Assembly (NCBI RefSeq): GCF_946479765.1
Contig: NZ_CAMLHO010000006.1
Coordinates: forward strand, 1-64,000
DNA length: 64,000 nucleotides
Reading direction: 5' to 3'
Source: an uncultured Aliivibrio sp.
Lineage (GTDB): Bacteria > Pseudomonadota > Gammaproteobacteria > Enterobacterales > Vibrionaceae
The translations under genes were made by a program, and so were the position numbers. Below the pieces are notes generated by a model that was not told the DNA's origin, did no database searches, and saw nothing but the letters and a program-made list of their open reading frames with translations. Below, piece after piece: positions 150 to 55,298 of the stretch (positions are counted from its first letter, which is position 1; the number at the start of each line of letters is the position of its first letter).

Positions 150-890
150 TTATAGGCTCTCAGCAATATCGACAGTATGACTAATAATGTTTGTCCCTTC
201 GCCAACGTTACCATGCCCGGGAACAACGAATCGAGTTTCAGGGTATTTAGTTAATACTTTCTGAGCTGAATCCGCCCATTCTTTCGTATCTGCATCACCC
301 GTCCATCCAATCGTATTAACCTCATTTGCTCGCATTAAACAACCGCCAAGTAATACTTTTTCTTTGGGTAGCCATACAACAGAATTATCTTTAGTGTGAC
401 CCGCCCCCGGGTAGAAAACTTCAATCTTATTTTCTAACAGCACAAAATTATCACCTGAAAATTGATGATTAGTCGCTTTCTTGTTATCACCTTTCAAAAA
501 ATTGTTGGTTAATGCAGACGCGTAAGTCTCAAAGTGATGTTCTTGCAGGTATTCTAATCCACCAGTTTGATCTTCATGAAAATGAGAAAATACCGTTTTC
601 TTTAATGTTAATCCTCTATTTTCAATCCACGTCATCAACTGAGGCATGTTCGACGCATTCCATGGCGTATCAATTAAATACGCATCCTTTCCATCAATAT
701 ACACTAAAGAATTAGCATCGACCAAAATAGGTTTCTTTGGGCTCTGTAAGTTTTTAAATTCACGATACGATTTAACTAAAAACACATTATTCGTGATTTC
801 TTCAAATTGAAGCGGTTTAACTGGCTCATCCGCAGCAGATACATTAAAGCCAATAACCGCACTCAATAGCGCTATAGTAAATTTAAACAT
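150..890 (-). CDS. Subclass B1 metallo-beta-lactamase (IMP-like)
   Basis: A predicted periplasmic zinc enzyme that hydrolyses beta-lactams. After a signal peptide (about residues 1-19, ending VSA-ADEP) the mature domain carries all B1 zinc ligands: HFHED (His103, His105, Asp107), His165 in PGAGHT, Cys184 in GGCLMR and His226 in VPGHG. ETYASALTN and KIEVFYPG resemble IMP-type enzymes, as does the total length of 246 aa. The start at 890 is preferred because an AAGGA box lies 9 nt upstream; the ATG at 899 would touch that box directly. It faces the biosynthetic-looking operon across about 200 bp. A chromosomal B1 enzyme called ALI-1 is known from Aliivibrio salmonicida, and this may be its orthologue; that is from memory, not a comparison. 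Confidence 0.9.
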   Translation of the reverse strand: MFKFTIALLSAVIGFNVSAADEPVKPLQFEEITNNVFLVKSYREFKNLQSPKKPILVDANSLVYIDGKDAYLIDTPWNASNMPQLMTWIENRGLTLKKTVFSHFHEDQTGGLEYLQEHHFETYASALTNNFLKGDNKKATNHQFSGDNFVLLENKIEVFYPGAGHTKDNSVVWLPKEKVLLGGCLMRANEVNTIGWTGDADTKEWADSAQKVLTKYPETRFVVPGHGNVGEGTNIISHTVDIAESL

Positions 891-1097
891 GAATTCCATT
901 CCTTTTTAAATATTGCTATAAATATACAATATTCCTCCGCTTTCAATTGTTAGTTAAGTGTAAAATCCAGCCTAACTCTACGTTAACGCATTGTTTGTTT
1001 TAATAGCCTTATTTTTGAAAAAAGCAATTTTGTACAAGAACCAATTCATGCCCTGCTTTACTCTAGTTACATAAATAAAAACAAGGATTGATACACA

Positions 1098-1730
1098 ATG
1101 ATGGATCAAAATTATTATTGGCTACGGGATAACAGTAATATTACGACAGTTGCCACTCTTGGCCCAAAAAGTTCAAGCAGTGAAGCCGCGGCTAATTACT
1201 ATTCAAATTTACTCAATAGACCATTAAAGATCTTACTTTTCGATACTTTTGAAAAAGCTTCTGACTTCGTCGAAAATAATGACAATGTGGCATTACTTGT
1301 TGCGAACGCCTATAAAAAAGCAGATTATTTTTACATGAACCCAAGAACATTACTGTCAGGGTCATTCTTTTTTTCTCCTCCTAAATACTACCTTTGTTGT
1401 AGAAATCTTCATGAATTACAGCAAAAAATAAATAATAACGACACTATAAGCATCGATACTCATCACGCCCCTATTTCACGTCTTGATGGCTTAATCAAGA
1501 CTGCGAGCCCAAGCCTAATAGATCTATCGAGCGCTAATTTAAATATCAAACTTTCATCTTCAACAAGTCAATCTGCTATCCATGTTTCTGAAGGTTTATC
1601 AGACTGTTGCCTTGTCAATTCAGATTCCATCAAACTCTATCAACTAGAAAAAATTTCAGCCCCTTTAACCATTCAAATGACTTGGGTGCTTTTTATAAAA
1701 AATAAACAACGTAAAAAGGAAGAAGTGTAA
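1098..1730 (+). CDS. BacA-like prephenate decarboxylase/dehydratase-fold protein
   Basis: A 210-aa stand-alone prephenate dehydratase-type fold without an ACT regulatory domain. The N-terminal ATLGPKSSSSEAAANYY matches the LGPEGT-SE-AA signature of this superfamily. FYMNPRTLL in the middle and GLSDCCLVN plus MTWVLFIK near the end resemble Bacillus BacA (bacilysin prephenate decarboxylase, about 204 aa) as I recall it, more than PheA. The TRF catalytic motif of true dehydratases is replaced by TWV, which argues against phenylpyruvate formation. It heads an operon and overlaps the next gene by one base (TAATG). The substrate could be prephenate or a related keto acid; function is inferred from family only. 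Confidence 0.7.
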   Translation: MMDQNYYWLRDNSNITTVATLGPKSSSSEAAANYYSNLLNRPLKILLFDTFEKASDFVENNDNVALLVANAYKKADYFYMNPRTLLSGSFFFSPPKYYLCCRNLHELQQKINNNDTISIDTHHAPISRLDGLIKTASPSLIDLSSANLNIKLSSSTSQSAIHVSEGLSDCCLVNSDSIKLYQLEKISAPLTIQMTWVLFIKNKQRKKEEV

Positions 1731-2134
1731 TGGACAATCAAAAATGCGTGCTCGTGATAGATAAAGCCTTGCCACAAGGGCTAATTGCGAATACTGCGGC
1801 TGTTCTTACTTTATCGCTAGGTAAACTACACCCAGAACTAATCGGCGCAGACAACATCAATAATGATGGCGAAACTCATACAGGGATCACTTCAATTCCA
1901 ATCCCTATTTTAGCCAGTTCATCTGGTTCAATTAAAGAAATAAGACGCTTTCTAAAAGATGAAGTCACCGTAGTCGACTTTTCAAACGTAGCTCAAAGTA
2001 CTAAAAATTATCAAGATTATTCAGAAAAACTGGCTTCAACTAAAGCCGATGATATTGAATATCTTGGTATCGCAATTTATGGAGCAAAAAAAATAGTCAA
2101 TAAATACACGGGGGATTTAGGATTAGTAAGATGA
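1730..2134 (+). CDS. DUF2000 family protein
   Basis: A 134-aa cytoplasmic protein. The opening CVLVIDKALPQGLIANTAAVL and later KLHPELIGAD and HTGITSIPIPIL fit the DUF2000 family, which has a peptidyl-tRNA hydrolase II-like fold and no settled function. No signal peptide or membrane segment is visible. It starts on the stop codon of the BacA-like gene and overlaps the SUMF1 gene by 4 nt (ATGA), so the three are probably translationally coupled. Its position inside a biosynthetic-looking operon suggests an accessory or enzymatic role there, but the sequence does not say which. Confidence 0.65.
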   Translation: MDNQKCVLVIDKALPQGLIANTAAVLTLSLGKLHPELIGADNINNDGETHTGITSIPIPILASSSGSIKEIRRFLKDEVTVVDFSNVAQSTKNYQDYSEKLASTKADDIEYLGIAIYGAKKIVNKYTGDLGLVR

Positions 2135-2889
2135 GTAGAATCAATAACATGACATTAGTTTCAGGGGATCCTTATGAGAGAGGTTCGAACTTAAGCCCTG
2201 ATGAACAGCCTATATGTACAATTACTCTGGCACCTTTTTTTATAGATATACACCCTGTATTAAATAAAGATTTTAGAATTTTTATCGAACAAGGCGGTTA
2301 TTCAGACCCTTCTTATTGGTCGCATAAAGGGTTTAACTTTATTACAGATAGCCAAATCACTGAACCATTATATTGGCATGATAAAAACTGGAATGGTGAT
2401 AAAAAACCAGTCACTGGTATTAGTTGGTATGAAGCTGAAGCTTATGCAACCTTTGTAGGTAAAACACTTCCAACAGAGACTCAATGGGAATATGCCGCCA
2501 AAGGAAATGATACTCGTACTTACCCTTGGGGCAATGCAGAACCGACCTCTTCTATTGCTAACTTTGCACCTGATTGTGAACCCGAAGAGTTTGACAGAAA
2601 ATCAACAGATTGGGATGCTCACCCCCAAAATCGGTCACCTTTTGGTTGCGTTGATATGGGGGGAAATCTCGCTGAATGGTGTTTAGATAATTACCTTCCA
2701 AATTATGCATGGGACACTAAAAACATCGATCCTATTTGTATATCAAATATTAATTTTGACCATGTTGTCAGAGGTGGTTCAGGCCTGCATGATGAAGATT
2801 ATATGCGATGCTCAAGTAGAGATAATTACCCCCCAACGGTTAGAGATAATATTGTTGGTTTCCGCTGTGTTAAAAATTTAACGGATTAG
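2131..2889 (+). CDS. SUMF1/FGE-like (formylglycine-generating enzyme fold) protein
   Basis: A 252-aa single-domain SUMF1/FGE-sulfatase family protein. Signature blocks appear in order: ISWYEAEAYATFVGKTLPTE, QWEYAAKG, YPWGN, GGNLAEWCLDNY and, at the end, VVRGGSGLHDEDYMRCSSR followed by GFRCV. The paired copper-binding cysteines of authentic formylglycine-generating enzymes (a C-x4-C pattern after RGGS) are absent, so it is unlikely to mature sulfatases. The family also includes EgtB/OvoA C-terminal domains and PvdO-type tailoring enzymes. No sulfatase gene is nearby. It is the third gene of the operon and overlaps DUF2000. A tailoring role on the operon's product is inference. Confidence 0.75.
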   Translation: MSRINNMTLVSGDPYERGSNLSPDEQPICTITLAPFFIDIHPVLNKDFRIFIEQGGYSDPSYWSHKGFNFITDSQITEPLYWHDKNWNGDKKPVTGISWYEAEAYATFVGKTLPTETQWEYAAKGNDTRTYPWGNAEPTSSIANFAPDCEPEEFDRKSTDWDAHPQNRSPFGCVDMGGNLAEWCLDNYLPNYAWDTKNIDPICISNINFDHVVRGGSGLHDEDYMRCSSRDNYPPTVRDNIVGFRCVKNLTD

Positions 2890-2900
2890 TGAGTCGTATT

Positions 2901-3542
2901 ATGGAAACAATTACGAAAACCCCTTTTATAGAGAAGAAACCCTCGTCATTACGCTATTACCAAGAAGGACCACCAGTAGAGTTTGATACTCAAAAATGGT
3001 CATTAAAAATCTTTTTGCCTAATGAAGCAACGCCAATTGAAATTGGTCTTGATGAATTAAAAAAAATTGCCCCAATAACAGAAAATCGTCGTGAAGTTTG
3101 TGTCTGTAACTGGAGTATTCGTCGTACTTGGACAGGAATTTTACTCTTAGATTTATTGAATTATCTTAAAATTGATAGTCCACAATACCGCTCTCATTTC
3201 TTGAAACAAATAAGCGTGGGTACGGAGAAAGGTCAATACGACTCTACCATCCCTTTTATCAACGCCATTGAAAACCGCACTATGCTTGTATGGGCAGTAG
3301 ACAGCGAAGAACTGTCATTTGAAGAGGGCTATCCATTAAGACTAATTAATTTCTCTTTATATCGCTATAAAGGAGTTAAGTGTTTGTCTGAACTATACTT
3401 TACTAAAGAATTTAAAGCCGGATTCTGGGAAAAAAAAGCAGGCTACTGCAAAGAAGGACAAATTAAGGCAAAACGCTATCGTATTGTCGATTTACAAGAA
3501 CACCGCTTCATTGAAGGACACAAAGAAGTAACCGAATTTTAA
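2901..3542 (+). CDS. Orphan sulfite-oxidase-fold molybdopterin-dependent protein
   Basis: A protein of about 213 aa with the oxidoreductase molybdopterin-binding (sulfite oxidase/MsrP) fold. REVCVCNWSIRRTWTG aligns with the MsrP segment that contains the molybdenum-ligating cysteine, and GYPLRLINF and YRYKGVKCLSEL match the later conserved GYPxRL and G-K-W/C-like blocks. There is no Tat signal, haem domain or dimerisation domain, so it should be cytoplasmic. An alternative GTG start at 2889 overlaps the previous stop (TAGTG) and would add four residues; ATG 2901 is chosen for the GAG-type Shine-Dalgarno 7 nt upstream. Substrate unknown. Confidence 0.65.
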   Translation: METITKTPFIEKKPSSLRYYQEGPPVEFDTQKWSLKIFLPNEATPIEIGLDELKKIAPITENRREVCVCNWSIRRTWTGILLLDLLNYLKIDSPQYRSHFLKQISVGTEKGQYDSTIPFINAIENRTMLVWAVDSEELSFEEGYPLRLINFSLYRYKGVKCLSELYFTKEFKAGFWEKKAGYCKEGQIKAKRYRIVDLQEHRFIEGHKEVTEF

Positions 3543-3551
3543 GGATAAATT

Positions 3552-4154
3552 ATGACTCTATTTCTAGCGATGGCAACGTTTGCCTTTGTCACTTCACTGT
3601 CACCTGGACCGGTAAATATTCTTGCCACCATTACTGGTGCCAATCATGGGTACACGAGAACCATTCCACATATTTTTGGTGCAACTGTGGGGTTTGTGTC
3701 TATCCTTATCTTATTGGGATTAGGGCTCATACAAGCCTTTGATGATTCTCATACAGCAACACTCATCTTAAATTACCTTGGCAGTGCCTTTCTACTTTAT
3801 TTGGCTTATAAAGTGGCAACAAGCGAAAGAACTGAACAAGATAAAAGTAAAAAAGACGATGCTCCAACCATGACCCAGGGCTTATTGTGTCAATGGTTAA
3901 ATCCAAAAGCTTGGATTGTGTCTTTATCAGGTGTCACCGTTTTTTCTAGTAATGGTGTGATTCCTCTCGAAGACCTTGGGGCATTTAGTGTGATATTTTT
4001 TATCGTATGTTATTGCTGTATATCAACCTGGGCTCTATTAGGGTTAACTATAGGCAAATACCTTGAGCACCCTATTCATTATAAAATTTTTAATCGAATT
4101 ATGGGGGCCTTACTTGCACTAACCGTAGTGTATGTTTTCTTTATATCAAAATAA
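3552..4154 (+). CDS. LysE/RhtB family amino-acid exporter
   Basis: A 200-aa inner-membrane protein with about six hydrophobic segments. It opens with FVTSLSPGPVNILATITGAN, the SPGP motif of LysE/RhtB exporters, and carries the QWLNPKAWI motif in the middle. The family exports amino acids or small amine/acid metabolites. A good ribosome-binding site (AAGGA, 6 nt) precedes the ATG. It is the fifth gene of the operon, followed after 2 nt by an AraC regulator, an arrangement often seen for exporters controlled by their own substrate. In this context it probably exports the product made by the upstream enzymes (inference). Confidence 0.85.
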   Translation: MTLFLAMATFAFVTSLSPGPVNILATITGANHGYTRTIPHIFGATVGFVSILILLGLGLIQAFDDSHTATLILNYLGSAFLLYLAYKVATSERTEQDKSKKDDAPTMTQGLLCQWLNPKAWIVSLSGVTVFSSNGVIPLEDLGAFSVIFFIVCYCCISTWALLGLTIGKYLEHPIHYKIFNRIMGALLALTVVYVFFISK

Positions 4155-4156
4155 TA

Positions 4157-4978
4157 ATGGACGTTACGTTGGCTAATTCAAATCCTCACTTTTTAAGATC
4201 ATCAGTTCTTCCGTTTGAGTTACGTTATTCAGATAATTCAAACGCCTGCTACAAAAAGCACACCCATTCAGAATTCTCGATAGGAGTGGTTGATAGTGGG
4301 ATCAGTGAGTATGTAAATCAAAATATAAAACAAACAATTCAACCAGGTTCTACTGTTATTGTAAACCCGGAAGAAGTGCATTCATGTAACCCACAAAAAG
4401 GCACAAACTGGAGCTATAAAATGCTGTATGTTGAGCCCAGTTGGTTGGCTAACCTTCAATCTAAAATATCTAATAAGAACAACAATAACTTTCAACCTAT
4501 TCAGATGACACACAGCGATTGTCCTTTTCTATATCAAGGATTCCAATCACTAGCTCAAACCCTAATAGAAAATGAATCAGCGATTAAAGTGGAGCAAACC
4601 GCAATCAATTTTTTCGCTGAATTATTTTTAATTGATGCCAAAATACCTTCGATAGATATCATTTCTAAAAAAGCTGTTGATTGTGCTTATCAATATATTT
4701 CAGATAATTTTGATAAAAACATTTCAATTTCTGACATTGCCAATATCTCGGGTTTAAGTGATTTTTATCTTATCCATTCATTTAGAAAACAATATGGTAT
4801 TACTCCCCATGCTTATCAAATTGTCATGCGCATCAATCGAGCAAAAGAATTATTAAAACAAGGAGATAATATTGCGTCTATTGCGACAGACCTTGGCTTT
4901 ACTGATCAAAGTCATTTCCATCGAAATTTTAAGAAAATGGTCGCAGCAACACCAAAACAATATAAAAAAGACTTATAA
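4157..4978 (+). CDS. AraC family transcriptional regulator
   Basis: A 273-aa regulator. The N-terminal half (about 1-150) is an AraC-type cupin with KKHTHSEFSIGVVDSG and PGSTVIVNPEEVHSCNP. The C-terminal 100 residues contain two helix-turn-helix motifs, ISISDIANISGLSDFYLIHS and NIASIATDLGFTDQSHFHRN, then TPKQYKK. The start lies 2 nt after the exporter stop with no strong Shine-Dalgarno, suggesting translational coupling. It most likely senses the exported metabolite or its precursor and controls the 1098-4978 operon, possibly also the facing beta-lactamase; no operator could be identified by eye. Confidence 0.88.
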   Translation: MDVTLANSNPHFLRSSVLPFELRYSDNSNACYKKHTHSEFSIGVVDSGISEYVNQNIKQTIQPGSTVIVNPEEVHSCNPQKGTNWSYKMLYVEPSWLANLQSKISNKNNNNFQPIQMTHSDCPFLYQGFQSLAQTLIENESAIKVEQTAINFFAELFLIDAKIPSIDIISKKAVDCAYQYISDNFDKNISISDIANISGLSDFYLIHSFRKQYGITPHAYQIVMRINRAKELLKQGDNIASIATDLGFTDQSHFHRNFKKMVAATPKQYKKDL

Positions 4979-5056: not shown

Positions 5057-6010
5057 ATGAACTTACGCTATTTACTTCTTACTACTTGCGTAATTAGTAC
5101 GCCTGCGCTTTCGAAATTAGCAAATAAAGAAGGCATTAGTGGTGAAATTGCATTAACAACGGGGTTTGCATCTTCAACATCCAATTTTAATACTGACGGT
5201 GATGACACCATTACCTCAACAAATCAAAAAGCCTCTGCCGAAAACAGCTTCATGGCCTTTCCTCTTGGTAATATTGCCTATACGTTTGGCCAAGAGTTAA
5301 ATCAACAAGTTCACGTTGGTACAACACGTCAAGATGTGGCAACAGGTACGGTTGTTCTTGAAGTCGGTTATAAATATCAATTTAAATCAAGAATGGCGAT
5401 TGATGTTTCTATTCTGCCAACCATTATGTCGAGCAATACATGGGCTGACCCATATTTGGTCGGTTCTGCACGTACAGAAACGGATGCCTCAGGAAACGCA
5501 TTTCGTTTTAAAGTCGATAATATTGCAGGTTCAAACTTTACCATTGATACCGCTTATGCCACCAAAGATATCAAAAACGATGAGGTCGAAGACATACTAA
5601 AAAGAGACGCCGATACTCTCTACTTAAAGGGTCAATATCGTTTACCATTAAGTCGCACTTCTTTCGTCCTACCTTCTGTTATTTACCAATCGTCATCTGC
5701 AGACGGAGAAGCGAGCTCTTACGATCAATACGGCGCTGAGCTGAGCTTTTTCAAATTAATGCAAAGGCATAAGTTAGTAGTAACCGCAGGGTACAACCAA
5801 CAAAACTTCAGCGCAGACAATCCTATTTATAATAAAACTCGTAAAGACAATAAGTTAAGCCTATTTGCCGCTTACGAATACACTAAATTCATGAATTCGA
5901 AAGATTGGTCATTCATCTCTTTTGCGGGTTACAGCTCAACCGATTCAAACATTACTTTTTATGACGAATCAGAATACATTGTTACTGTCGGTCTAAACTA
6001 TAAATTCTAA
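5057..6010 (+). CDS. DUF2860-type outer-membrane beta-barrel protein
   Basis: A 317-aa exported protein. A signal peptide (MNLRYLLLTTCVISTPALS) is followed by alternating polar/hydrophobic strands typical of a barrel, with many Tyr/Phe residues at strand ends, and the chain ends in GLNYKF, an outer-membrane C-terminal signature. It resembles the DUF2860 family common in vibrios (from memory). It lies 78 nt after the AraC gene on the same strand, with its own AAAGGATGATG ribosome-binding region, and is followed by a strong terminator. It may be co-transcribed with the upstream operon; function unknown. Confidence 0.7.
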   Translation: MNLRYLLLTTCVISTPALSKLANKEGISGEIALTTGFASSTSNFNTDGDDTITSTNQKASAENSFMAFPLGNIAYTFGQELNQQVHVGTTRQDVATGTVVLEVGYKYQFKSRMAIDVSILPTIMSSNTWADPYLVGSARTETDASGNAFRFKVDNIAGSNFTIDTAYATKDIKNDEVEDILKRDADTLYLKGQYRLPLSRTSFVLPSVIYQSSSADGEASSYDQYGAELSFFKLMQRHKLVVTAGYNQQNFSADNPIYNKTRKDNKLSLFAAYEYTKFMNSKDWSFISFAGYSSTDSNITFYDESEYIVTVGLNYKF

Positions 6011-6064: not shown

Positions 6065-7984
6065 TCAATAATAACGATAATCACTGGTATAAAAATCCAG
6101 TAGTTTATTAATCGCAATATCTCGATAACTGTCTTTCTCAATTAACATATCGTGATAAGCCCCTGCGACTTGTTCTAAATGGCTTGTATCGCATTTCTCA
6201 TGAAACTCAGATTGCGCCACGTTACTCACCACAAGATCTTCCCCTGCTTGAAGGATCAGTATTGGGATTTTTACTTTATGTGCATTCGCAATGCATTTCT
6301 TACCCGCCCTAATAGATTCAGTGATCCAATGGGTACTTGGTCCACCTAATCTTAGGTTTGGCTTCTCTAAAAACAAATCAAGAAATAGTTTATAGCGCGC
6401 CTCACTGTGAGTTAAGACATTATCTTGATATTGAACTTCTTTAAAATGACTTTGGCCTAACGCATAGTTTGGTTTACTCGCTAACACATCAAGTAAATTT
6501 AACGTTTGTTTTTTAAAGCCATGCGCCCTGCCCGAAATGTACACACCAAACATAGGAGAGGTTGCTGCTGATGCCTTTACTGGATGATCGAAGGTTGATA
6601 AATATTGAGTCATTACCGCAGCGCCCATCGAGTGAGAAAGCATAAAACACTCGCCCTCTAAATTTGGTCGCACGACCTTCTCCATAAAAATATAAAGATC
6701 CATAACATAATCATGAAAATCATCCACGTGACCTAATTCATGATCTTGTGTCATTCGTCCAGACTCACCTTGACCACGGTGATCATAAGCGTAGATATTA
6801 AAATACTGACTTAATTCAAGAATCGCTTCTTTATATTTCCAATAGCTTTCATTACGACCATTCACAATAACTAACGTTTGCTTTTTATCATTAGGGTTAA
6901 CATTAATCCATTTTAATGGAATACGTTCTACACCTAAGACTTCACCGAGCTTTTTGTTATTCCAAATAGCATCAATTTGCTCATTGTATTCTTGCTGTTT
7001 CTCTCCATCCGTAAAATGCTCTTCACGAGTTTTCACTAAAAAACGTTCTTGTGATAAATGCGCTAAATTCAGCTTTGGTGCTATTGTTTCAAGAAATAGC
7101 TTACCTACGTCTTTACCATGATGATAATCGGCGTCCAATTGTTTTTTTGTACTACCAAGTACTTTAGATTGAAGACTTCTATTCGGTGATATTTCATAAA
7201 TAATGACATCATCTGGTGGATTCGCTAAAAATGCTTGAGTCTTACGATAATTATCTTCGTGAATAATCAGCATTGCGGCCATATGATCTAACGTATTATT
7301 CTTTGTCATCTTAGCAAGAGAAATTAACCAGTCATGATTTTCTTTAAAATCAACAGGTACTGTGCGAATAACAACAATATGACGAAAACCTCTATCATAC
7401 GCGGCTTGCACTGGAATAGGCATTGTTAAGCCACCATCAAGCCAACGTTTATCATCCATAATTACAGGCTGTTTATGTAGAGCAGGGATAGCACAAGAGG
7501 CGCGGAGGATGTCTTTCCAATTACTGGTAGAAAGATCGAAGTATTTGGTTTCAAAATTGGTTGCATGAGCCGCAACGGCAAGCACTTGTTTAGTATTGAG
7601 ATGTTCTTCTCCAACTTTCCAATTAAGAGGAATATCGAATTCTGTTTTATCAATTAACCAATCTAAGTCCATCCCTTCGCCAGTCAATAAGAAGCGGGAT
7701 AATTTGAAAAAATCAGGACTGCGAGTAACTTGATCGATAATTCGATAAGCGTGTCCTTTATGACCACAAATATAAGACGCTAAATTAAGCGATCCGGCAG
7801 AGGTTCCAATCAATAAATCAAATGGGTTAAAGTTCGCTTGCAAGAAGCTATCAAGCACACCAGCAGTAAACACGCCTCTTTGGCCGCCACCTTCAGTAAC
7901 TAACGCAATTTTATCGACATCTCTTTTAGCGAAACGAAAAACATCAAAACTGTTTTTACTAATCGAATAATGTTCACCCATCAT
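6065..7984 (-). CDS. Patatin-like phospholipase fused to alpha/beta-hydrolase (lysophospholipase)
   Basis: A 639-aa cytoplasmic or membrane-associated lipid hydrolase built from two enzymes. Residues about 25-330 are a patatin/YjjU-type domain: the oxyanion loop GGGQRGVF (32-39), nucleophile Ser62 in GTSAGS and Asp183 in DGG. Residues about 340-639 are an alpha/beta hydrolase of the PldB/monoacylglycerol lipase type, with YAYDHRGQGESGR, the nucleophile elbow SHSMGAA, ILILQAGEDLVV and a late His in GAYHDML. Each half is close to full family length and both catalytic sets look intact. In other gammaproteobacteria the activities are on separate proteins (YjjU, PldB). Two adjacent ATG codons make the exact start uncertain. 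Confidence 0.88.
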   Translation of the reverse strand: MMGEHYSISKNSFDVFRFAKRDVDKIALVTEGGGQRGVFTAGVLDSFLQANFNPFDLLIGTSAGSLNLASYICGHKGHAYRIIDQVTRSPDFFKLSRFLLTGEGMDLDWLIDKTEFDIPLNWKVGEEHLNTKQVLAVAAHATNFETKYFDLSTSNWKDILRASCAIPALHKQPVIMDDKRWLDGGLTMPIPVQAAYDRGFRHIVVIRTVPVDFKENHDWLISLAKMTKNNTLDHMAAMLIIHEDNYRKTQAFLANPPDDVIIYEISPNRSLQSKVLGSTKKQLDADYHHGKDVGKLFLETIAPKLNLAHLSQERFLVKTREEHFTDGEKQQEYNEQIDAIWNNKKLGEVLGVERIPLKWINVNPNDKKQTLVIVNGRNESYWKYKEAILELSQYFNIYAYDHRGQGESGRMTQDHELGHVDDFHDYVMDLYIFMEKVVRPNLEGECFMLSHSMGAAVMTQYLSTFDHPVKASAATSPMFGVYISGRAHGFKKQTLNLLDVLASKPNYALGQSHFKEVQYQDNVLTHSEARYKLFLDLFLEKPNLRLGGPSTHWITESIRAGKKCIANAHKVKIPILILQAGEDLVVSNVAQSEFHEKCDTSHLEQVAGAYHDMLIEKDSYRDIAINKLLDFYTSDYRYY

Positions 7985-55080: not shown

Positions 55081-55151
55081 AATCTCTTCCTTGTAAAAAT
55101 GTAATTCTAAATTTGTTGTGGTTATCTGTTACTAATGTTGGTCATAAAACG

Positions 55152-55188
55152 AAAAAACCCTCAGAAGTTTTACCTTCCGAGGGTTTGA
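55152..55188 (-). terminator. his attenuator terminator
   Basis: On the minus strand AAACCCTCGGAAG pairs with CTTCTGAGGGTTT and is followed by further T. It lies between hisL and hisG. A GGAAGG/CCTTCC pair in the preceding 60 bp can form the competing antiterminator. Confidence 0.88.
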
Positions 55189-55250
55189 AATTTTATTCAT
55201 CGGAAGGAAATTCTAGTTGCCTTCCCGGATATGCATATCCTCCCGAAAGA

Positions 55251-55298
55251 CTACTCAGGATGATGGTGGTGATGAATGTTCAGACCTTGAATACGCAT
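55251..55298 (-). CDS. hisL: his operon leader peptide
   Basis: A 15-residue leader, MRIQGLNIHHHHHPE, with five consecutive His codons, ending in TAG. It lies upstream of the attenuator hairpin and hisG, so His-tRNA shortage would stall the ribosome and favour antitermination. Confidence 0.93.
   Translation of the reverse strand: MRIQGLNIHHHHHPE

Follow-up and report, generated by a model that had tools for sequence, protein, structure and literature searches.

In a 64,000-nucleotide stretch of DNA from an uncultured marine Aliivibrio sp. (contig NZ_CAMLHO010000006.1, positions 1 to 64,000; hereafter "the window") we analysed a compact operon at positions 1098–4978, which encodes a BacA-like protein, a DUF2000 protein, a protein with the fold of the formylglycine-generating enzyme (FGE), a molybdoprotein with the sulfite oxidase fold, a LysE-type exporter and an AraC-family regulator. 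The same six genes recur in the same order in Vibrio and Xenorhabdus and, on balance, probably represent a portable, self-contained pathway for an amino-acid-like natural product that is exported and sensed by its producer. The locus is composed as follows.

1023..1039, plus strand: 17-bp element AGCAATTTTGTACAAGA, which includes the palindrome TTGTACAA; candidate operator or promoter
1098..1730, plus strand: gene 1, single-domain prephenate-dehydratase-fold protein, BacA-like, putative non-aromatising prephenate decarboxylase, 210 aa
1730..2134, plus strand: gene 2, DUF2000 protein with a predicted peptidyl-tRNA-hydrolase-2 (Pth2) fold, 134 aa
2131..2889, plus strand: gene 3, SUMF1/FGE-fold protein without a DinB domain, with His220/Met225 for the copper cysteines of FGE, 252 aa
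2889..3542, plus strand: gene 4, cytosolic-looking single-domain sulfite-oxidase-fold molybdoprotein, 217 aa, GTG start
3552..4154, plus strand: gene 5, LysE/Rht-type exporter, 200 aa (PF01810, E=1.3e-21)
4157..4978, plus strand: gene 6, AraC-family regulator with an AraC_binding sensor domain, 273 aa (PF12833, PF02311)

Results

Organisation and recurrence of the unit

All six open reading frames (ORFs) are present where they had been placed before, and their close packing with short overlaps and gaps was borne out: in operon order, the junctions are overlaps of 1, 4 and 1 nt followed by gaps of 9 and 2 nt. An in-frame ATG at 2901 is an alternative start of gene 4, the choice of which would give an 11-nt gap after gene 3. 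Genes 2–6 lie well over their Pfam cut-offs, gene 1 having a sub-threshold match only. The ratio of nonsynonymous to synonymous substitution rates (dN/dS) is 0.04–0.32 in 22 of 24 gene-by-pair comparisons, the remaining two being saturated, and all six genes are under purifying selection. Because the gene order is repeated in another bacterial family and dN/dS is low, the set is beyond chance, and the six genes form one functional unit.

The scan of GTDB genomes yielded 23 loci; in the tally of six-gene loci each species is taken once. The genes have the same order and full length at eight sampled loci: the window, Aliivibrio sp. S4MY1 (G010 in the naming of the scan), A. fischeri emors.2.1 (G003), a further Aliivibrio genome (G002), V. 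halioticoli (on a 244-kb plasmid), X. lircayensis, X. anantnagensis and X. szentirmaii. Damaged or incomplete loci occur in Aliivibrio G004, Vibrio sp. J1-1, V. metschnikovii, X. bovienii (contig end) and X. khoisanae, and remnants of the unit were also detected in a genome of another genus (G407). The original prediction had linked the six genes and named absence of co-occurrence elsewhere as its test; they do co-occur, with unchanged order, in Aliivibrio, Vibrio and Xenorhabdus. An all-against-all comparison of the ORFs around ten loci and the window revealed that the Vibrionaceae and Xenorhabdus flanks have in common the six genes, their antisense shadows and four further ORF groups. Since the flanks are otherwise unrelated between the two families, the unit is portable. 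Base composition (GC content of 36.4% in the operon and 39.1% in the window) was uninformative as an indicator of recent foreign origin.

Gene 4 is present in 5 of 14 Aliivibrio genomes examined, and gene 3 in 5 of 30 genomes of the genus Xenorhabdus. Relatives of gene 1 (E<=1e-5) were found in 16 of 296 Vibrionaceae genomes, seven belonging to the six-gene type and nine to a distant type, and 11 of the 13 distant loci L051–L063 group a gene 1-like gene with DUF2000 and LysE. Of the 21 matches that the gene 1 profile gave in 394 genomes of the order, 19 were weak (E from 2e-7 to 8e-6) and mostly inside frames of PheA length. Viral contigs yielded one partial match with no query genes around it at E 1e-4, and the E. 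coli genomes searched gave no match. In V. metschnikovii (L048, 10404–13583), the AraC gene is interrupted by IS66-family ORFs, and of genes 1–4 only fragments of genes 1 and 4 are left.

The upstream element

Upstream of gene 1, a consensus block (A)(G/A)CAATTTTGTACAA(T/G)A is conserved, the rest of this region being hard to align between genera. The 13-mer core of the element is exact at 10 of the 11 six-gene loci and has one mismatch at the 11th (V. metschnikovii); at 10 loci it lies approximately 53–59 nt from the start of gene 1. The 17-bp pattern MRCAATTTTGTACAAKA occurs once per genome in all nine six-gene genomes, and as a single copy in 10 of 14 Aliivibrio and 7 of 30 Xenorhabdus genomes; in all 18 element-positive genomes the single copy is located at the locus of the unit. 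The reversed pattern used as a control gave no matches in all three genome searches, and within the window further copies were represented by near-matches only, at the level of chance (4 found, 5.9 expected). Scans for sigma-70 promoters and terminators were uninformative, promoter matches being fewer than the shuffle mean. In our reading the element serves the unit as operator or promoter, with AraC as its candidate binder.

Loci retaining only LysE and AraC

The six-gene unit is missing from 5 of 10 element-positive Aliivibrio (G006, G007, G008, G012, G013) and from 2 of 7 element-positive Xenorhabdus (G664, G678). These seven genomes are devoid of genes 1–4, and in each of them the element lies upstream of intact LysE and AraC genes, gene 6 accompanying gene 5 at every two-gene locus. 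The distance to LysE is 58–68 nt in the five Aliivibrio, and remnant DNA intervenes in the two Xenorhabdus. In 4 of the 5 Aliivibrio, the beta-lactamase gene of the window is directly upstream and its DUF2860 gene downstream (in G007 two genes are in between); judging from these matching flanks, the two-gene Aliivibrio loci occupy the same site as the unit. The Xenorhabdus loci carry scars, composed of 16 residues from the start of gene 1 and 75 from the end of gene 4 in G664 and of 46 residues from the start of gene 1 in G678. Therefore, the two-gene state was derived there by deletion: biosynthesis was lost while the exporter, regulator and element were retained.

The earlier suggestion that the product is exported and sensed is strengthened by this private upstream element and by the relatives keeping only the element, exporter and AraC, which are as expected if the compound served as a weapon or a signal. 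At the two-gene Aliivibrio loci (L105–L109) LysE is 90–95% and AraC 66–86% identical to the window proteins, and the weaker conservation of AraC may reflect a change in its sensor or in its DNA contacts.

Properties of the gene products

The sole Pfam match of gene 1 is the prephenate dehydratase family PDT (PF00800; E=0.016, 15.5 bits against a cut-off of 25.2). Its predicted structure is a single domain of the PDT fold without the regulatory ACT part, and it carries IxMxWxxF, as BacA-like proteins do, in place of the dehydratase TRF motif. In our alignment IxMxWxxF is found in 20 of 21 non-PheA rows and NITRFIVL in 4 of 4 PheA rows; the motif was derived in the present analysis, and the equivalence of its column to TRF is our own reading. 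Being below the PF00800 cut-off and devoid of the TRF motif, gene 1 was rejected as an ordinary prephenate dehydratase. The BacA-like label originally given to it is borne out by the relatives, predicted fold and motif, and not by a direct family match. The gene 1 tree recovers the groups, with long branches. One group member, in S. goshikiensis, adjoins genes for a cupin, short-chain dehydrogenases/reductases, a major facilitator superfamily (MFS) transporter and an aminotransferase, which represent a bacilysin-like set annotated BacA. In all three Photorhabdus genomes, the sole relative found belongs to a locus with DUF2000, aminotransferase and LysE genes.

Gene 2 belongs to DUF2000 (PF09391; E=6.8e-43, 146.2 bits against a cut-off of 25), and its predicted fold is that of the Pth2 superfamily, 2gax being the one convincing match in a sequence search of the PDB. 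The catalytic lysine region of Pth2 seems to be replaced. DUF2000 is named in no open-licence full text searched.

Gene 3 belongs to the FGE-sulfatase family (PF03781, E=1.2e-49). Its best NCBIfam matches, EgtB (1.2e-38; 133 bits against a cut-off of 360) and SenA (4e-34; 119 against 420), and likewise PvdO (48.7 against 500), are all below cut-off; EgtB 4x8b is the top match of its profile search in the PDB. Gene 3 covers only the C-terminal half of the EgtB profile (positions 194–412 of 413) and has no DinB domain, which in EgtB presumably carries the iron ligands. In the alignment with FGE 6s07, the copper-binding cysteine pair is replaced by His220 and Met225, which are invariant in 10 of 10 gene 3 homologues, whereas none of the 7 other FGE-like proteins in the comparison has them; the copper site of FGE consists of two cysteines (PMC12123546). 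We therefore rejected gene 3 as a formylglycine-generating enzyme given this replacement, as EgtB or SenA given the C-terminal coverage and sub-threshold scores, and as PvdO given a score far under the cut-off. Gene 3 resembles FGE, EgtB, CalU17 and PvdO of the SUMF1 superfamily in fold and core residues and differs in having His/Met for Cys/Cys and no DinB domain. Of the comparison with PvdO and EgtB made at the outset, the fold neighbourhood was retained and membership was not.

Gene 4 belongs to Oxidored_molyb (PF00174; E=7.3e-20, 71.7 bits against a cut-off of 24). Its nearest solved relative is the bacterial protein 1xdq, titled 'Bacterial Sulfite Oxidase', which we take to be YedY/MsrP. 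Cys71 aligns with the cysteine of 1xdq and is invariant in 9 of 9 homologues, so that the Mo-ligand cysteine is kept. As for MsrP, the likeness likewise extends to the fold only: the score is 42.1 bits against a cut-off of 207, no export or twin-arginine (Tat) signal is visible by eye in the sequence, and gene 4 was rejected as a member. The moaA gene scored over its cut-off in 8 of 8 genomes checked. Gene 5 exceeds the LysE cut-off (77.5 against 25.6 bits) and reaches no NCBIfam equivalog cut-off; gene 6 combines HTH_18 (PF12833, E=1.4e-21) with the AraC_binding domain (PF02311).

Neighbouring features of the window

A divergent gene at 150–899 (minus strand), which scores over the cut-off of the NCBIfam model blaALI, encodes an ALI-family metallo-beta-lactamase of subclass B1; in several other Aliivibrio, too, such a gene stands next to the six genes or to the two-gene locus. 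Both this gene and the downstream DUF2860 gene (5057–6010) were rejected as pathway parts, being missing from the Vibrio and Xenorhabdus flanks read. The gene at 6065–7984 (minus strand) encodes a protein of 639 aa in which a patatin-like domain, DUF6363 and an alpha/beta hydrolase (Hydrolase_4) are fused. The sole Rfam match of the window at the gathering threshold is a Histidine operon leader RNA at 55149–55275 (minus strand).

Discussion

In the pathway that we favour, the gene 1 product would decarboxylate prephenate without aromatising the ring, yielding dihydro-hydroxyphenylpyruvate. The ring or the side chain would then be oxidised or reduced by the gene 3 product, probably a metal-dependent oxidase or oxygenase with a His/Met site, and by the gene 4 product, presumably a cytosolic mono-molybdopterin (mono-MPT) molybdenum enzyme, with the Pth2-fold protein of gene 2 as a possible isomerase- or hydrolase-like or binding accessory. 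A housekeeping aminotransferase of the host could complete the amino acid. LysE would export the product, providing both release and self-protection, and AraC would sense it and drive the unit from the single upstream element, so the element–LysE–AraC relatives may be exporter-only alleles tolerating a compound made by others.

One of the closest known systems is the bacilysin/anticapsin pathway (bacABCDEFG), which starts with a protein of the gene 1 type. BacA is of the same size (204 aa, compared with 210 aa here) and decarboxylates prephenate without aromatisation (PMC9147277). Both systems would have a small amino-acid-like product and a dedicated exporter. However, the BacB cupin, BacC/BacG, the BacD ligase and the BacF aminotransferase have no counterpart in our unit, and the bacilysin exporter is of the MFS type, while the unit has LysE together with the DUF2000, FGE-fold and molybdenum proteins. 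The "type B" cluster of Photorhabdus, composed of Dabb, DUF2000, PaaK-like ligase, class IV aminotransferase, PDT-like, CMD, OCD and LysE genes, shares the PDT-like, DUF2000 and LysE genes with the unit; no FGE-fold or molybdenum gene was found in the type B loci that were read ORF by ORF or annotated, and regulation is by Lrp and not by AraC. By elimination, and given a review that describes a non-aromatising prephenate decarboxylase and a transaminase in the dihydrophenylalanine route of P. luminescens (PMC5897657), we take this cluster to be the dihydrophenylalanine locus.

A large Pseudomonas aeruginosa plasmid (L093, 2070–8889; NZ_CP096823.1) carries this second cluster type, with Lrp, Dabb, DUF2000, AMP-binding, aminotransferase, BacA-annotated, CMD, OCD and LysE genes. 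On a plasmid of Streptomyces sp. NBC_00464 (L096, 5215–10759) Dabb, PaaK-like ligase, IlvE, PDT-like, OCD, DUF1330 and PhzF genes lie beside nonribosomal peptide synthetase (NRPS) and polyketide synthase (PKS) genes, which is a further setting of the PDT-like family. The prephenate decarboxylases AerD (aeruginosin) and SalX (salinosporamide) presumably belong to the same enzyme family as gene 1, the motif of which is present in a cyanobacterial relative (Iningainema, L061). Their pathways supply tailoring precursors inside NRPS/PKS clusters, whereas the unit described here consists of six stand-alone genes. As originally proposed, no described pathway with this gene set was found in the open-licence full texts of PubMed Central, most subscription journals being outside this coverage. 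The unit is a new gene combination within a known kind of pathway.

Several observations weigh against the interpretation outlined above. The unit contains no aminotransferase gene; gene 1 shares no more than about 30% identity with BacA-annotated proteins, and the deep branches of its tree are poorly supported; 2 of the 9 distant Vibrionaceae loci (L034, L035) have no nearby DUF2000 at the threshold used. Five of the 13 six-gene loci are damaged or cut (X. bovienii by the contig end), which indicates frequent loss of the unit. The four extra flank ORF groups, each common to V. metschnikovii and a single Xenorhabdus, comprise two IS66 transposase ORFs (L046/L048), a MarR regulator and an EamA transporter (L048/L050). 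The conservation of the element could be that of a core promoter instead of an AraC operator. Remnants of genes 1–4 were sought in the five two-gene Aliivibrio and none was seen, so that loss is evidenced in the two Xenorhabdus only, and the two-gene state in Aliivibrio could be ancestral. Convergent LysE–AraC neighbours, 34–39% identical, occur among the matches listed in at least seven plasmid records, from rhizobia, Cupriavidus, Azospirillum and Burkholderia; given these pairs on plasmids of other genera, LysE–AraC may be an older general module that predates the unit. Finally, a distant gene 1 relative in Phaeobacter has VPMGFTIH at the motif position instead of IxMxWxxF. The neighbours at this locus, presumably the tropodithietic acid (tda) cluster, are unrelated to the unit, the likeness being limited to this PDT-like protein, and to our knowledge the tda pathway is not prephenate-derived.

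The last three observations also fit a rather unlikely scenario, in which LysE–AraC is an old general sensor-exporter of amino acids, genes 1–4 are a later cassette placed between the element and LysE, and the substrate of gene 1 is not prephenate. It is also consistent with dN/dS among the five two-gene Aliivibrio (LysE 0.04–0.10, AraC 0.06–0.11; 10 pairs each), which shows that the pair is maintained, although part of this selection signal may predate any loss. Nevertheless, the two Xenorhabdus reached the two-gene state by deletion, and the motif and group of gene 1 point to prephenate decarboxylases. A sulfur or selenium compound pathway, with gene 3 forming a C–S bond as EgtB, OvoA or SenA do and gene 4 reducing a sulfoxide as MsrP does, is suggested by the EgtB, SenA and 4x8b matches of gene 3 and by 1xdq as the neighbour of gene 4; we regard it as improbable, since the half of EgtB presumed to hold the iron ligands is missing, the scores of both genes are far under the cut-offs and the unit has no sulfur-donor gene. 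An AraC protein with a sensor domain, an exporter and the patchy accessory distribution in Aliivibrio and Xenorhabdus would suit an operon for catabolism or detoxification that is switched on by an aromatic compound from outside, but the unit has neither an uptake system nor a ring-cleavage enzyme, and wherever the neighbourhood of the gene 1 group can be read, this group is biosynthetic, which makes such an operon very improbable. Hardly credible is a protein maturation or repair unit of the formylglycine or methionine-sulfoxide type: the folds of genes 3 and 4 fit it, but the FGE cysteines are replaced, the unit encodes no sulfatase, and the amino-acid-type exporter and the BacA-like gene are left unexplained.

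Returning to the exported, self-sensed product, a bolder version can be offered tentatively, as a possibility with the balance against it: the unit would make an antimetabolite or signal of a new, prephenate-derived class through an FGE-fold His/Met (possibly copper) enzyme and a cytosolic molybdenum enzyme, and would move between animal-associated bacteria as a producer unit, with the exporter-plus-sensor relatives providing dedicated immunity. We know of no prephenate-decarboxylase pathway with such a combination of chemistries.

Prephenate decarboxylases lead to odd cyclohexadienyl amino acids with antibiotic activity. With its two unusual oxidoreductase folds, a unit as compact as this one would add a new branch to that chemistry, and it is small enough for gene-by-gene dissection. 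Gene 3 yields a precise, testable prediction, His/Met in place of both copper cysteines of FGE, and DUF2000 can now be assigned a predicted fold and placed in the context of a pathway. The occurrence of element–LysE–AraC loci that have no biosynthesis genes suggests a role of the compound between strains, in genera of squid symbionts and nematode symbionts.

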